Assembly (NCBI RefSeq): GCF_000220525.1
Contig: NZ_AFPK01000071.1
Location: forward strand, 1 to 64,000
Length of the DNA: 64,000 nt
Source of the DNA: Ochrovirga pacifica
Lineage (GTDB): Bacteria > Bacteroidota > Bacteroidia > Flavobacteriales > Flavobacteriaceae
Direction of reading: 5' to 3'
In this document: positions 35,463 to 46,257 of the stretch, in pieces
How positions within the stretch are numbered: position 1 is the stretch's first letter
Layout of the letters: each line of letters opens with the position of its first letter
Position numbers and translations under genes: made by a program
The notes under the pieces: model-generated
What the model was told of the DNA's origin: nothing
Databases searched by the model: none
What the model saw: only the letters and a program-made list of their open reading frames with translations

Positions 35463-38369
35463 TTAAAAGTTAACATTTAATCCAAGTACAAATGTTCTTG
35501 GTCTAGGATACACATTGTTATCTATTCCTAAATTTACTTCTGGATCTAAACCACTATAATCTGTTATAGTAAGCACATTTTGTACTGAACCATAAACCCT
35601 AACACTTGTTTCTTTATAAAAATCTGGCAACGTATAACCTAGTACTACATTGTCTATTTTAAAAAAAGAAGCCTCTTCTATATAATGATCGCTAAACAAG
35701 TTGATTTTTTGAAATCCAGTTTGCTCGTAGCTCTTGTGTATGTTATTTAAAATAGCATTGTCTGTTAGCATATCTGAAAATCCAATGCTAGAAGCCACGT
35801 TGTTATACACATAGTTTCCTATGCTAGCTCTGGTAACCATATTAAAATCAAAGTTTTTATAGGTAATATTGGTATTGAATCCCATAGTAACATCTGCATA
35901 AGGGTCTTTGTGCATGTACATGTCTTTGTCATTTAGCACTCCGTTTCCATCTCTGTCTACATAAGCTCCTTCGATAGGTCTTCCGTTGGTATCGTAAAGT
36001 TGCTCAAAAACTAAGTAGTTAAAAGGTGCATATCCTTGTACATGTGTTTGGATTTTGTTTCCTGTTCCTCCGCTAATATCTCCTGTAAATTGTTGATCTG
36101 GTAGTCTAGTGATTTCATTATCATTATAAGAAATATTGTATCCAAAGGCTACGGTTATATCACTCGTAGAGATGGCTTTCCAATTTACATTAAACTCAAT
36201 CCCTTTGTTTACCATATCTCCTAAGTTTGCAGCAATTCTATTTCCAAAATTGGTAAAAGGATCTACTACAGTATTGGCAATAACATCTCTGGTTTCTTTT
36301 CTATACACATTTAATGAACCTGATAATTTATGATTTAAGAATGCATAATCGATACCCGCATTGTAAGTTCTTCCTACCTCCCACTTTAACTCTTTGTTAA
36401 CAGGATCGGGTCTGTATGTTTGATAATATTGATTTCCAAATTGATAGTTTGCTGCAGATGTACTTGCCGTATAGCGAGTTAAGAACATATAATCATTTAA
36501 TCCGTTTACGTTCCCGACTTCTCCATAACCCAATCTTAATTTTAAATCGTTTATAAAATCAACATCTTCTAAAAAACTTTCTTTGTGTAGGTTCCATGCT
36601 GCAGCAAAAGAAGAGAAGATTCCCCAACGATCATCTGGACTTAATTTAGAAGAAGCATCCGCTCTAACGGTTGCAGTTAACAAATATTTTCCATCAAAAT
36701 TATAGTTAGCTCTACCAAAGTAAGACAACAGGGTACTTCTGTATTTATCTACATATTCAAAATCATTTCCTTGCTCTTCAGCTTCACTATCGTAGTCGTA
36801 CTTATCTGTTTCAAATTTTTGATAAGAATATCCTCCCATAACATTTAACCCATGTTTTCCAAAATCTTTTTTATAGGTTAGATAAAAGTCAAACAAGGTG
36901 TTTTGTGTATTGTTTCTGTAAGAGGTTCTAGAACCATTAAACGTTGCATCTGAGGTCGGAATGCTTTCTGAAGTTACCTTTCTTCCATGAGTATTTGTTA
37001 AGTCTACCCCTGTATTGATGGTTGCTGTTAGCTCTGGTAAAAAATGTAATTTGTAATCAACTTTTGCATTTCCTATAAAACTTCTTACCTCGGAGCTATC
37101 ATCTACCAAGTTTAACAAAGCTACAGGGTTTGTTGGCACCAAGTTTAATTGATAACCATTGTCTCCTGTCCACGCATAATATCCATCAAAAATAGAGTTT
37201 TCATCACGAACAGCTTGTGTAGGATCAAAACCTACAGCAGCCCCAATAGCATCTCTGTTAGCAAAGGTATTCTCTGTAAAACTTCCTCTGGTATTCAACT
37301 CTACTTTTAAGTGATCATCTAAAAAAGAAGGCATTACGTTTACAGAAGCCGTTGTTCTTTTAAAATTGTCTGTTTTTAAAATTCCATCCTGATCGCTGTA
37401 ACCTAAAGAAACTCTTAGTGGCATGTTTAAAACACTTCCCCTTGCACTAAAATTATGTTGATGACCAATTGCTGTCTGATAAATCTCATCTTGCCAGTTG
37501 GTGTTAGCATCTCCTAACTTGGCAATGTCATCTGCATCTCCTATGGTGTTTATCAACTCTCTAAACGCATCCGCAGTATACACATCAGATTTTTCGGCAG
37601 GCGTATATACAGATGTAGCTGCATTGTACGAAAATTTAAATCCTCCCTTTTTTCCTTTTTTGGTGGTAATTAAAATCACTCCGTTTGCCCCTCTAGATCC
37701 GTATATAGAAGTTGCCGATGCATCTTTTAGTACCACCATACTATCTATATCATCTGGATTGATGGTATTTAGCACATCTCTTGCTCCTCCTAAAGTCTCA
37801 TCACTTAAAGGCAATCCATCTAACACAATTAATGGTGAGCTAGACAACACTAAAGATCCTGTACCTCTAATTACAATATTTTGTTTGTCTCCTGGTGCTC
37901 CACTTGCCGAAGTAACCGTAACTCCAGCTACTTTACCAGTAATTAACTGCTGAGGAGATTGTTGTGGACCTGGGTTAAAAGATTTAGATGTGATTAAATC
38001 TGCAGAACCTGTTAAATCTTCTTTTTTAGAAGAACCATATCCTACACTTAAAGTAACAGCATCTAGACTTGTTACATCTTCTTCTAACAAAATTTCTAAT
38101 TTTCCGTTTGATGGAATTGTTAGCACTTGTGTTTTGTAGCCTATAAAAGAGACTTCAATTGTCTTAGGGCTATTTTCTGCTAATTTTAAAGTAAACATTC
38201 CTTCAAAATCTGTTACGGTTCCGTTGGTTGTTCCTTGTACCAAAACCGAAACACCTGCTAAAGGCAAATCCATTGCCTTATCTTTTACCATTCCAGAAAC
38301 ACTTTTTTGTGCCATCATTCCCATCGGAATTAGAATAGTAACAAACAATATAATTAACGTTTTTTTCAT
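35463..38369 (-). CDS. susC: SusC-like TonB-dependent glycan transporter
   Basis: A 968-residue outer-membrane receptor. After the signal peptide (to MAQ) come a carboxypeptidase-regulatory-like domain (VSGMVKDKAMDLPLAGVSVLVQGT...), the plug with SVGYGSSKKEDLTGS and the SusC signature VVLKDASATSIYGSRGANGVILITTKKG, then the 22-strand barrel ending RPRTFVLGLNVNF. It is the first gene of the leftward operon. The promoter at 38413-38444 overlaps a putative operator. Confidence 0.95.
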   Translation of the reverse strand: MKKTLIILFVTILIPMGMMAQKSVSGMVKDKAMDLPLAGVSVLVQGTTNGTVTDFEGMFTLKLAENSPKTIEVSFIGYKTQVLTIPSNGKLEILLEEDVTSLDAVTLSVGYGSSKKEDLTGSADLITSKSFNPGPQQSPQQLITGKVAGVTVTSASGAPGDKQNIVIRGTGSLVLSSSPLIVLDGLPLSDETLGGARDVLNTINPDDIDSMVVLKDASATSIYGSRGANGVILITTKKGKKGGFKFSYNAATSVYTPAEKSDVYTADAFRELINTIGDADDIAKLGDANTNWQDEIYQTAIGHQHNFSARGSVLNMPLRVSLGYSDQDGILKTDNFKRTTASVNVMPSFLDDHLKVELNTRGSFTENTFANRDAIGAAVGFDPTQAVRDENSIFDGYYAWTGDNGYQLNLVPTNPVALLNLVDDSSEVRSFIGNAKVDYKLHFLPELTATINTGVDLTNTHGRKVTSESIPTSDATFNGSRTSYRNNTQNTLFDFYLTYKKDFGKHGLNVMGGYSYQKFETDKYDYDSEAEEQGNDFEYVDKYRSTLLSYFGRANYNFDGKYLLTATVRADASSKLSPDDRWGIFSSFAAAWNLHKESFLEDVDFINDLKLRLGYGEVGNVNGLNDYMFLTRYTASTSAANYQFGNQYYQTYRPDPVNKELKWEVGRTYNAGIDYAFLNHKLSGSLNVYRKETRDVIANTVVDPFTNFGNRIAANLGDMVNKGIEFNVNWKAISTSDITVAFGYNISYNDNEITRLPDQQFTGDISGGTGNKIQTHVQGYAPFNYLVFEQLYDTNGRPIEGAYVDRDGNGVLNDKDMYMHKDPYADVTMGFNTNITYKNFDFNMVTRASIGNYVYNNVASSIGFSDMLTDNAILNNIHKSYEQTGFQKINLFSDHYIEEASFFKIDNVVLGYTLPDFYKETSVRVYGSVQNVLTITDYSGLDPEVNLGIDNNVYPRPRTFVLGLNVNF

Positions 38370-38409
38370 ACTTTTAAGTTTAGTAATTAACTTATTTTTT
38401 TACATCTCG

Positions 38410-38471
38410 ACGTAAACGTAGCTAAAAATAAAAGTGATGTCAAATTGGGAAATCAACTATCACGTTTTCGT
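38410..38471 (-). promoter_or_regulatory. susC promoter with two LacI-type operator candidates
   Basis: On the minus strand TTTG (plus 38441-38444) is followed after 20 bases by TACGTTTA (plus 38413-38420), a good match to the Bacteroidetes -33/-7 pair. The palindrome-like ACGTTTACGT (plus 38410-38419) covers the -7 element. A second copy, ACGTTTTCGT, with the wider dyad CACG-TTTT-CGTG, lies at 38461-38472 upstream of the -33. The centres are 52 bp apart, about five helical turns. Confidence 0.65.
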
Positions 38472-38581
38472 GTTAATAAGTTTTATAAAAAAGTACATAA
38501 AAGTAAGTTTTTTAACCATTTCATAATTCAGATATTGCTTTTTTATGATTATGTTTATTTTAGCACCTCAAAACTAAAAAT

Positions 38582-39625
38582 ATGTCAAAAAGAATCACTC
38601 TTAAACAAATTGCAAAAGAGCTTAATTTATCGATTTCTACAGTGTCAAAATCGCTAAGAAACAGCCATGAAATTAGTGAGGAAACTAAAAATTTAGTCCA
38701 AGCTTTTGCCAAGTTCTACAATTACAAACCCAATAGCATTGCTCTTAATTTAAGAAACAACAAATCTAAAACCATAGGAATTATCATTCCAGAAATAACA
38801 CATTATTTCTTTTCTAATGTAATTGCTGGTATAGATAGTGAAGCAAATAAAAAAGGATACCGTGTTGTGGTAAGTCTTTCTAATGAAACTTTTGATACCG
38901 AGGTAATTAATATGGAAACTTTAGCCAATGGAAGTGTAGATGGCTTTATCATCTCCGTAGCCAAAGAAACCCTACTAAACAAAGACTTTCATCACTTTAA
39001 AGAAACCATTAACCAAGGAATGCCTATTGTTATGTTCGATAGGGTTACCAATGAAGTTGGTTGCGACAAAGTAATTATTGATGACAAAGCCGGTGCAAAA
39101 AAAGCAGTAAACAAATTGGTTGGTAGCGGATGTAAAAAAATAGCCCTTGTAACCACAGAAGACTATATTACCGTAGGAAAACTTAGAACGGATGGCTATA
39201 AAGAAGCCTTAGAAGATCATGAAATTCCTTTTGACCCAAATTTGTTAATCCGCATTCAAGACCAAGGAGGTGATAAAGATGAAGTTGTTAGAATATTGGA
39301 ACAAGACATAATTAAACTACTTTATCAGCATCCAAATATTGATGCCTTTTTTGCTGTAAACGAACTTTCTGCCATTACTGTAATGAAAACAGCCATGAAC
39401 ATGGATTACAAAATTCCTGATGACATTTCAATCATTGCTTTTACAGACGGTGTTTTATCAAAATACTCTATTCCAGCCATGACTACTGTTAGCCAACATG
39501 CGTTTGAAATGGGAGTTGCATCTGCTAAATTACTGATAGACAAAATAGAAGAAAACACCAACTCAGAATTCTTTGTTACACAAACCATGGAAGCAACTTT
39601 GATTGAAAGACAGACAACTAAATAA
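38582..39625 (+). CDS. LacI-family transcriptional regulator of the glucan locus
   Basis: A 347-residue LacI/GalR protein. The N-terminal helix-turn-helix is TLKQIAKELNLSISTVSKSLRNSHEISEETK (residues 6-36), followed by the hinge YKPNSIALNLRNNKSKTIGIIIPEI and a periplasmic-binding-protein-like sensor with FDRV, IDDKAGA and FAVNELSAITVM. It lies divergent from susC and directly upstream of the sugar transporter operon, so it most likely responds to maltose or a maltodextrin and controls both directions. The CG-centred sites at 38410 and 38461 fit a LacI-type operator. Confidence 0.92.
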   Translation: MSKRITLKQIAKELNLSISTVSKSLRNSHEISEETKNLVQAFAKFYNYKPNSIALNLRNNKSKTIGIIIPEITHYFFSNVIAGIDSEANKKGYRVVVSLSNETFDTEVINMETLANGSVDGFIISVAKETLLNKDFHHFKETINQGMPIVMFDRVTNEVGCDKVIIDDKAGAKKAVNKLVGSGCKKIALVTTEDYITVGKLRTDGYKEALEDHEIPFDPNLLIRIQDQGGDKDEVVRILEQDIIKLLYQHPNIDAFFAVNELSAITVMKTAMNMDYKIPDDISIIAFTDGVLSKYSIPAMTTVSQHAFEMGVASAKLLIDKIEENTNSEFFVTQTMEATLIERQTTK

Positions 39626-39631
39626 ACTTTT

Positions 39632-39662
39632 TTTGAAATTTTGAAAAAAAACTCTACTTTTG
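39632..39662 (+). promoter_or_regulatory. Promoter of the MFS-PGM-GH65-GH97 operon
   Basis: TTTG at 39632-39635, a 19-base spacer and TACTTTTG at 39655-39662 match the Bacteroidetes consensus TTTG-N19-TAnnTTTG exactly. Transcription would start about 90 bases before the MFS ATG, leaving a long leader. Confidence 0.75.
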
Positions 39663-39670
39663 TAGAAATA

Positions 39671-39720
39671 TCGAGACTTATTTTTTTACATCTCTCAACT
39701 AAATTAATAATAAGTCTTGA
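39671..39720 (+). promoter_or_regulatory. Inverted repeat in the leader of the MFS operon
   Basis: TCGAGACTTATT at 39671-39682 pairs with AATAAGTCTTGA at 39709-39720, 11 of 12 positions, with 26 bases between. It lies just after the predicted start of transcription and before the MFS gene. There is no T run, so it is not a simple terminator. It could be an RNA hairpin or a protein site; it does not match the ACGTTTWCGT motif. Confidence 0.5.
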
Positions 39721-39761
39721 TGAGTCTTCGTACTTATCGGCAATAAAATACTATTGCGATA

Positions 39762-41096
39762 ATGAAAAAACGCACACTTCGTTTTACAGAAATATGGAAC
39801 ATGAGTTTTGGGTTCTTGGGCATCCAAATGGGTTTTGCTTTGCAAAATGCCAATGCTAGCAGAATTCTACAAACGTTTGGTGCAGACATTCATCAATTAT
39901 CTTGGTTTTGGATTATTGCTCCGCTAATGGGGCTTATTGTACAACCCATTGTAGGGTACTACAGCGACAAAACCTGGACAAAACTAGGAAGAAGAAGACC
40001 TTACTTTTTAGCAGGTGCATTACTAGCCTCAATTGGGCTAATCTTAATGCCACAAGCCCATTTATTTATTGCTTTTTTACCACCACTCTGGATAGGAGCA
40101 GGTATGCTTATGATAATGGATGCATCGTTTAACGTTGCCATGGAACCTTTTAGAGCATTGGTAGGTGATAATTTGGGAGATCATCAAAAGACTTTAGGAT
40201 TTAGTATTCAGACTGTATTAATAGGTATTGGTGCAGTAATAGGTTCGTGGTTACCTTATGTTTTGGCAAAAGGATTAGGACTTACTGCTGTAACCAGTAG
40301 CGGTATACCTCAAAATCTTATTGTTTCTTTTATTATAGGAGCTATCATCTTAATCGCTTCTGTACTCGTTACAGTATTTACTACAAAAGAATATACTCCA
40401 AAAGAGTTAGCTTCTTTTACTGTTAATAAAAACGAATTAAAAGAAAACAAGCACAAAGCTTTTGGACTACAATCTATTGCTACAGATTTTAAAAACATGC
40501 CCAAAACCATGAAACAACTATCAGGAGTTCAGTTTTTTTCATGGTTTGGTCTCTTTGGTATGTGGGTATTTACTACGCCTGCCATCGCACAACATATATT
40601 TAACACAAACGACACACACTCAACACTATATAACGAAGCTGGAGATTGGGTAGGAATCATTTTTGGTATTTACAACCTAACCTCTGCTATAGTTGCTTTT
40701 TTCTTAACCTCCCTTTCTAAAAAAATAGGGCGTAAAGAAACACATGCCATCTCGTTATTTATAGGAGGACTAGGTTTGATCTCTATTTTTTTTGCTACCG
40801 ATAAATATTTTTTAATAGGCAGTATGATTGCCGTAGGAATTGCTTGGGCTAGTATCCTTAGCATGCCTTATGCAATGCTTGCTGGTGCTATCAACCCAAA
40901 AAAAATGGGAGTATACATGGGGATTTTTAACTTTTTTATTGTCATTCCTCAAATCATCAATGCACTTATTGGTGGACCTATCGTAAAATACCTGTATGGA
41001 AATCAAGCAATTTATGCTCTTATAACTGCAGGTGTGTCTTTTGTTATTGCAGCTATTTTAGCCCTACGTATTAAAGACGTATCGTTTGTAAAATAA
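39762..41096 (+). CDS. MFS sugar transporter (SLC45-like, probable maltose importer)
   Basis: A 444-residue inner-membrane carrier with about 12 hydrophobic segments. It shows the SLC45-type signatures NMSFGFLGIQMGFALQNANASRILQTFGA and the first cytoplasmic loop GYYSDKTWTKLGRRRPYFLAG. It leads the operon with beta-phosphoglucomutase, maltose phosphorylase and GH97, which points to maltose or short maltodextrin import into the cytoplasm. Substrate is inferred from context. Confidence 0.88.
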   Translation: MKKRTLRFTEIWNMSFGFLGIQMGFALQNANASRILQTFGADIHQLSWFWIIAPLMGLIVQPIVGYYSDKTWTKLGRRRPYFLAGALLASIGLILMPQAHLFIAFLPPLWIGAGMLMIMDASFNVAMEPFRALVGDNLGDHQKTLGFSIQTVLIGIGAVIGSWLPYVLAKGLGLTAVTSSGIPQNLIVSFIIGAIILIASVLVTVFTTKEYTPKELASFTVNKNELKENKHKAFGLQSIATDFKNMPKTMKQLSGVQFFSWFGLFGMWVFTTPAIAQHIFNTNDTHSTLYNEAGDWVGIIFGIYNLTSAIVAFFLTSLSKKIGRKETHAISLFIGGLGLISIFFATDKYFLIGSMIAVGIAWASILSMPYAMLAGAINPKKMGVYMGIFNFFIVIPQIINALIGGPIVKYLYGNQAIYALITAGVSFVIAAILALRIKDVSFVK

Positions 41097-41175: not shown

Positions 41176-41829
41176 ATGATCAAAGGATTTATATTCGATT
41201 TGGATGGAGTCATTGTAGACACCGCTAAGTACCATTATTTAGCATGGAAAGAGCTTGCCAATTCCATTAATATCGACTTTACGGAAACTGAAAACGAACA
41301 ATTAAAGGGAGTTAGTAGAGCAGAATCGCTGCAAAGAATTTTAAACTGGGGAAATGTAGAATTATCAGAAACGAAATTTAACCGTATGATGAGCGATAAA
41401 AACAAAATATATATAGACTATATAAACAAGATGGATGAAACAGATATTTTGCCCGATGTACCAAGAGTTTTAAACTTTTTAAAAACACATAAACAATTAA
41501 TTGCCCTGGGTTCTGCGAGTAAGAATGCTAAATACATTTTAAAAAAACTAGATCTTTTTGATGAATTTCATGTAATTATTGATGGTGCATCGGTTACGAA
41601 TCCCAAACCTAATCCTGAAGTATTTTTAACAGCCGCAGAAAAATTGCACGTGTCTCCGATTGATTGTTTTGTATTTGAAGATGCTGAAGCTGGAATAGAA
41701 GCCGCTAATGCTGCCCATATGAAAACTATTGGCATTGGAGACCCAAAAATTTTAAGTAAAGCCAACAAAATTTTTAGTGATTTTACACAAATCCCAAATG
41801 TTTACTTAAAAAACCTAATCTATAAATAG
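41176..41829 (+). CDS. pgmB: Beta-phosphoglucomutase
   Basis: A 217-residue HAD-family mutase converting beta-glucose-1-phosphate to glucose-6-phosphate. The nucleophile/acid pair is in FIFDLDGVIVDTA (D8 and D10), the cap has LKGVSRAESL, and the later motifs are LGSASKNAK and KPNPEVFLTAAEKL with VFEDAEAGIEAA. It is directly upstream of maltose phosphorylase, whose product it consumes, separated by 7 bases. Confidence 0.94.
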   Translation: MIKGFIFDLDGVIVDTAKYHYLAWKELANSINIDFTETENEQLKGVSRAESLQRILNWGNVELSETKFNRMMSDKNKIYIDYINKMDETDILPDVPRVLNFLKTHKQLIALGSASKNAKYILKKLDLFDEFHVIIDGASVTNPKPNPEVFLTAAEKLHVSPIDCFVFEDAEAGIEAANAAHMKTIGIGDPKILSKANKIFSDFTQIPNVYLKNLIYK

Positions 41830-41836
41830 AAAAGAA

Positions 41837-46257
<4,421 letters not shown>

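Follow-up and report, generated by a model that had tools for sequence, protein, structure and literature searches.

A single conserved operator upstream of susC and a predicted pairing between the susC mRNA and the leader of the intracellular operon in an alpha-glucan locus of Flavobacteriaceae

In Bacteroides the starch and maltose susCD genes are activated by SusR, which does not belong to the LacI family, unlike the regulator analysed here, and most LacI-family regulators act as repressors. For CcpA activation of Bacillus subtilis ackA, the part of PMC3463425 used here describes a LacI-family operator upstream of the core promoter, a dependence on the face of the helix and an extra conserved sequence upstream of the operator that is needed for full activation. 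A comparable arrangement is presented below, although CcpA is a global regulator working with HPr-Ser-P and the regulator in question is a local one, encoded beside a susC locus in Bacteroidota. With regard to RNA-level control, whose mapping in the glycan loci of Bacteroidota is only starting, the DonS-type RNAs of Bacteroides PULs act on susC-type genes and, as described in the excerpt of PMC7366714 that we cite, are divergently encoded cis-antisense RNAs. The locus studied here resembles them in that an RNA would act within a glycan locus, whereas the complement of susC lies about 1.3 kb away, beyond lacI (39677–39694) and in an mRNA leader, instead of being encoded opposite its susC. Pairing in trans between two mRNAs, coupling functionally linked genes, is reported for hly and prsA2 of Listeria, where the interaction joins a 3' UTR to a 5' UTR and gives protection from RNase J1 (PMC8079631, in the portion consulted); in our case the pairing is predicted and involves the extreme 5' end of one mRNA and a leader hairpin of another from the same locus.

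The window, that is, the whole 64-kb stretch of DNA analysed, contains an alpha-glucan locus which, according to gene calls and Pfam/TIGR matches, consists of a susC side and of a side carrying lacI and an intracellular operon. The former includes susC on the minus strand (35463–38369; TIGR04056), encoding a TonB-linked outer-membrane receptor, and also encodes SusD-like, esterase and GH13 genes. On the plus strand, the lacI-type gene (38582–39625), which adjoins the operator, is followed by an MFS/GPH-like sugar transporter (39762–41096; PF07690, PF13347), the first gene of the intracellular operon, and by a HAD-type phosphomutase-like gene (41176–41829), a maltose-phosphorylase-like GH65 gene (41837–44131) and a GH97 gene (44143–46257), the last three assigned from Pfam matches with putative substrate labels. 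The regulator matched PF00356 and PF13377 above cut-off, showing the helix-turn-helix and sugar-binding core of the LacI/GalR family, and its recognition and hinge region was nearly invariant among 110 orthologues. Two comparison sets were employed: 80 related loci of named genomes, a large share of which came from close relatives within Flavobacterium, and the results of a LacI protein search of 299 family genomes, 241 of which had a match. From these, 110 family genomes were taken by rank of their best LacI match, one locus each (30 + 80), leaving out G049 because its match lay at a contig edge. The divergent arrangement of lacI and susC was found in 108 of 110 loci (80 named and 30 family loci), the two exceptions (L039 and L048) being contig ends. 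Wenyingzhuangia marina was the nearest named relative, with 84% identity in lacI.

A first-pass annotation had placed two ACGTTTWCGT operator candidates around the susC promoter and proposed repression, possibly by looping between them. Both 10-mers are present, 52 bp apart (ACGTTTACGT, minus strand, 38410–38419; ACGTTTTCGT, plus strand, 38462–38471), and they are the only exact matches in the 64 kb; with one mismatch allowed, 9 copies were found compared to 5.75 expected, a number reached by 14 of 100 shuffles, so in this form the motif is not rarer than chance. The susC promoter was also correctly described, with TTTG (minus strand, 38444–38441), N20 and the -7 box TACGTTTA (minus strand, 38420–38413), as was the start of lacI at 38582, 110 bp from the upstream 10-mer. 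However, the two sites are not a pair of looping operators. The upstream 10-mer makes up the 10 right-hand base pairs of a conserved 16-bp palindrome at 38456–38471, so that both the unit and its centre had been misplaced, and the supposed second operator is the -7 box of susC with chance neighbours. The 10-mer was consequently rejected as a unit, being half of the 16-mer plus a promoter box. When orthologous susC genes were searched, as that annotation had suggested, the upstream motif was recovered whereas the one at the -7 box was not conserved: as a motif it was unique to the window among the 110 genomes, the nearest relative carrying TACGTTTACCT and other relatives TAGATTTAAC or similar at that position, in alignment with their TAnnTTTA boxes. 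A further ACGTTTWCGT-type copy outside the operator occurred in 2 of the 110 genomes, the window and L198, and in the latter it was part of a tandem operator. Looping is thus left without its second site, and a single operator suffices in most loci. What stood of the proposal was a CG-centred operator beside a LacI-type gene, conserved upstream of susC across the family.

The predicted operator has the consensus ACGAAAACGTTTTCGT and reads ACTATCACGTTTTCGT in the window (38456–38471, centre at 38463/38464), matching at 13 of 16 positions, with one good half (CGTTTTCGT) and the other degenerate. It is an even palindrome built around a CG, the form described for LacI-family operators in the part of PMC4052901 cited here; this CG did not vary among the 76 genomes profiled, and the palindrome is kept at the same place between the divergent lacI and susC genes across genera of Flavobacteriaceae. 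A best match of at least 13/16 was obtained in 100 of the 110 genomes, compared to about 0.8 of 110 expected from shuffled regions; the scores upstream of lacI were 16 in 27 genomes, 15 in 42, 14 in 20, 13 in 11, 12 in 6 and 11 in 4. The LacI-type protein would be expected to bind the 16-bp operator. A minority of loci carry several true operators, none of them at the -7 box: tandems 22 bp apart (L145 and L160), tandems 41 bp apart (L003, L013, L051 and L137) and three copies in L198. A few search terms applied to openly licensed papers returned no earlier report of this operator.

On its upstream side, in the direction of susC, the operator is abutted by a partner block (38472–38484, minus strand; consensus AAAAGTTnTCAAC), detected at -86 to -74 in the information profile of the 76 genomes and degenerate in the window. 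The block is as conserved as the operator, yet it is not a LacI half-site and is without a known protein. It was also seen beside operators of LacI paralogues near other susC genes (L241 and L247), and in L137 it is duplicated along with the operator.

The spacing between operator and promoter was counted towards susC, beginning at the start of the operator and ending at the -7 box, after dropping 7 of the 110 genomes for weak promoter scores. It was 50–51 or 60–62 bp in all 103 scorable genomes, with counts of 50 (1), 51 (9), 60 (3), 61 (78), 62 (10), 83 (1) and 84 (1), the last two being 22-bp tandems whose nearer copy, at 62, was the one used in the total. The two classes are about one helical turn apart. 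With the -7 box set at -12 to -5, the place given to the flavobacterial -7 box in the part of PMC9723704 consulted, the operator centre falls near -65.5, or -55.5 in the group of the window, relative to the predicted start. On the LacI tree the classes require 8 changes, 2 of them forced by well supported branches, and the distance from operator to lacI ranges between about 80 and 370 bp. In the named set of 80 loci the spacings were 51 (2), 58 (1), 60 (72) and 61 (1), the value of 58 corresponding to an ambiguous box in L009; L003, L013 and L051, in which no box was found by pattern, and L048, which has no upstream region, went unscored. The profile of the 76 genomes with spacing 61 showed three conserved blocks. 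One, at -86 to -58, consists of AAAAGTTnTCAAC and the operator; the next is an extended -7 element (TTTACATAnnTTTAAC); and the third covers the initial ~17 bases of the transcript, counted from the predicted start. No conserved TTTG was detected at -33 in this profile, and the -33-like TTTG of the window (38441–38444, minus strand) is not conserved in relatives.

The layout is therefore class I-like, with a single site upstream of the core promoter and on one helical face. The LacI-type regulator would bind this one 16-bp operator between lacI and susC and, from this position ahead of the core promoter, control susC, most likely as an activator in contact with RNA polymerase on a single face of the helix. 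A site placed upstream, at two distances related through the helical repeat, is more readily explained by activation than by repression, and the similarity to the layout of CcpA at ackA, including the extra upstream block, points in the same direction, so that the protein probably activates susC. Classical repression, with the protein shutting off susC at the operator, either by itself or through looping, until maltose releases it, would agree with the usual role of the family and with the two or three true operators of some loci, and an upstream position is by itself compatible with repression too. In the part of PMC3463425 used here, CcpA too acts for the most part as a repressor, and it can repress from upstream, as in the lev operon. 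Nevertheless, none of the 103 scorable genomes has an operator overlapping the core promoter, the supposed second site coincides with a -7 box and is not conserved as a motif, and the helical spacing to the -7 box is kept while the distance to lacI varies, all of which make repression unlikely.

The second part of the analysis concerns the transcript of susC. Its predicted first 18 nt (GAGATGTAAAAAAATAAG; 38391–38408, minus strand) are complementary at 18 of 18 positions to a segment of the leader of the MFS mRNA (CTTATTTTTTTACATCTC; 39677–39694, plus strand), lying within a hairpin, H1. At the DNA level this complementarity appears as two identical 18-bp stretches in direct orientation on the plus strand (38391–38408 and 39677–39694), one on either side of lacI. 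A search with the conserved susC start (CGAGAAGTGAAAATATAA) revealed a second same-strand copy beyond lacI in 7 of 10 genomes, within the MFS mRNA leader and antisense to that mRNA. Among loci L248–L278, those matches to the start motif that lay off this locus gave no hit to the PUL proteins of the window.

In 101 of 105 genomes, susC +2 to +17 was clearly complementary to the MFS-leader hairpin. The best complementary 12-mer between susC +1 and +19 reached 12/12 in 75 of the 105, 11 in 23, 10 in 3, 9 in 3 and 8 in 1, compared to 12/12 in 0 of 315 shuffled leaders (11 in 11, 10 in 74) and in 0 of 105 same-sense controls; in the named set, with 71 scorable loci, the values were 12 in 54, 11 in 12 and 10 in 5. 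With the 101 genomes aligned on that 12-mer, the fraction of matches by position was 0.24 at -1, 0.58 at +1 and 0.97 at +2, remained near 0.95 to +14 and fell to 0.77 at +17 and 0.33 at +19; the values inside the 12-mer are inflated because the 12-mer was chosen for matching, and those at the edges are not. The onset of the complementarity thus coincides with the predicted 5' terminus of the susC mRNA. In the window, the predicted pairing energy was -25.5 kcal/mol, compared to a mean of -8.2 and a minimum of -17.8 in 1,000 shuffles of the MFS leader.

The two partners also vary together. In 79 genomes with both parts, complementarity to the own partner averaged 15.06/16 compared to 13.37 when permuted, and 0 of 20,000 permutations were as high. 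When the segments of 100 genomes were placed independently against the consensus, the own partner gave 15.38/17 and swapped ones 13.55, with a maximum of 13.92 in 5,000 swaps. Genus-specific variants (the window, L151, L168, L170, L201 and L202) match best only each other, and the susC start of the window fits its own leader better than that of any other genome. Compared to the partner of the nearest relative on the LacI tree, the own partner was better in 46 of 98 genomes, worse in 11 and equal in the rest. Among the same 100 genomes, 114 cells of the comparison were changed on both sides and still complementary, and 162 were discordant, 37 of these at position 17; tests of single positions on independent tree pairs went in the expected direction at positions 8 and 12, with too few pairs to reach 0.05. 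Conserved and co-varying intermolecular complementarity, the mark of an mRNA–mRNA pair, is thus present, and the susC mRNA very probably pairs with the MFS leader; such pairing would be expected to take place in cells. No earlier report of a susC–MFS pairing was found with a few search terms in openly licensed papers.

The MFS leader is predicted to start from a promoter TTTG-N19-TACTTTTG (39632–39662, plus strand), and 155 of 157 loci have a TAnnTTT[AG] box at 70–170 nt ahead of the MFS start. No operator-like site beyond chance was detected in the lacI–MFS gap or near the MFS promoter in a scan of the 110 genomes. Three plus-strand hairpins can be drawn in the leader. Hairpin H1 (39669–39722; consensus ATCAAAACTTAT-loop-ATAAGTTTTGAT), with a 14-bp stem and a 26-nt loop, is supported by the fold and by an alignment; H2 (39719–39738) reuses the 3' arm of H1 (GATAAG..CTTATC), and H3 (39734–39764), taken from the fold with its core counted in the alignment, overlaps the 3' arm of H2 and reaches the MFS start codon (39762–39764). 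In the alignment of 55 sequences, 94.5% of the cells were paired for H1, 97.6% for H2 and 91.6% for H3, compared to 34–57% in slid-partner controls. The overlapping hairpins are mutually exclusive. Few two-sided changes were seen in H1 and H2, most being one-sided G-U changes, as expected if one segment must serve two partners. For most of 12 loci, joint folding with susC opened H1 and produced an H2-type hairpin, whereas in predicted folds of the leader alone the region of the H2 3' arm tends to be the partner of the start codon.

A covariance model of the leader found one copy in the genome of the window, which is a training sequence. It also matched in 101 of the 299 family genomes; of 246 genomes sampled from the order, 27 gave a match, and each of these belongs to the same family. 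Those of the matches that were checked against the LacI search lay beside lacI except in G056, where the match is far from its lacI; G291 fell outside this comparison. In G019 two neighbouring matches were observed (C1:553796-553906 and 553968-554049). Rfam gave no match in the window between 38200 and 39900 up to E = 1 and none in six relatives at gathering.

The repeated stretch might instead be a site for one more DNA-binding protein at both promoters, in agreement with the exact 18-bp direct repeat of the window, but the copies are opposite in orientation relative to transcription, one of them lies within a conserved hairpin, the match starts where the 5' end of the mRNA is predicted, and the best matches of the genus-specific variants are confined to one another, which leaves this reading very improbable. 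That the repeats flank lacI could also suggest the scar of a lacI insertion, in the form of a target-site duplication; such a scar would decay, whereas a diverging yet matched pair has been kept in about 100 genomes inside a conserved hairpin, and with the co-variation already contradicting it, this origin is hardly credible. A direction of effect opposite to ours, in which pairing with the MFS leader, or with a small RNA processed out of it, would change how stable the susC mRNA is or how well it is translated, is a possibility of some weight if on the doubtful side. The paired stretch is the predicted extreme 5' end of the susC mRNA, and DonS provides a precedent for antisense control of susC genes (PMC7366714, in the part cited). 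On the other hand, in the window about 20 nt separate the end of this stretch from the susC start codon, and the overlap of H1 and H2 in the MFS leader would stay unexplained. An effect of the pairing on susC itself is regarded as conceivable, with more doubt than confidence.

The reading preferred here is a switch in the MFS leader. The first ~17 nt of the susC mRNA would pair with the 5' arm and loop of H1 in the leader of the MFS–phosphomutase–GH65–GH97 mRNA, opening H1 so that the overlapping H2 could form; in its preferred version, the 3' arm of H2 would thereby be removed from its alternative partner at the start codon. The susC mRNA would in this way turn on the intracellular operon, which lacks an operator at its own promoter. 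The combination of a single upstream operator, likely activating, with a switch between the susC mRNA and the MFS leader appears the likelier joint explanation on balance: comparison among genomes gives the operator, its helical spacing, the complementarity, its co-variation and the conserved H1 and H2, while binding of the operator by the LacI-type protein, the sign of its effect on susC and of that of the pairing, and the pairing in cells are what we infer.

Activation of MFS by the pairing is put forward tentatively. Blocking the susC-paired stretch raised the mean predicted accessibility of the start codon from 0.366 to 0.466 (up in 45 and down in 7 of 79 leaders); blocking arbitrary stretches of the leader was nearly as effective (mean 0.437), so this comparison speaks weakly for the ON direction, and start-codon accessibility was rejected as proof of direction. 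In the window, blocking the whole predicted duplex raised the accessibility of the six start bases from 0.07 to 0.59, whereas with only the 18 paired bases blocked the MFE fold was unchanged at the start codon, which stayed paired.

If the scheme is correct, direct pairing between two mRNAs, with a defined and testable register, ties together two operons of a glycan locus and has persisted in about a hundred genomes, most of them from separate genera, and a LacI-type protein can act as an activator at a susC promoter. As a working proposal, regarded with somewhat less confidence than doubt, the 5' end of the susC mRNA could be a trans-acting regulator across Flavobacteriaceae which, induced by a LacI-type activator, flips the MFS leader between two exclusive folds, so that import through the outer membrane would license the intracellular pathway without a second operator.

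The family-wide consensus of the operator could be used for predicting regulons of this kind. A loose palindrome was rejected for a genome-wide regulon, as its 88 matches per strand in the genome of the window, compared to 461 in the reversed control, were uninformative; the partner block alone gave 314 and 286 matches in that genome, compared to 258 and 246 in the controls. The exact palindrome was found in 83 of the 299 family genomes, and its matches outside the locus included several in apparent coding sequence and a few in loci of LacI paralogues (L218, L241 and L247), two of which (L241 and L247) have the same design as the locus of the window. The exact palindrome with similar flanks (AATATT...AATAATGA) also recurs in eight unrelated loci (L221–L224, L229, L231, L233 and L236), where it lies apparently inside or at the end of a conserved gene.
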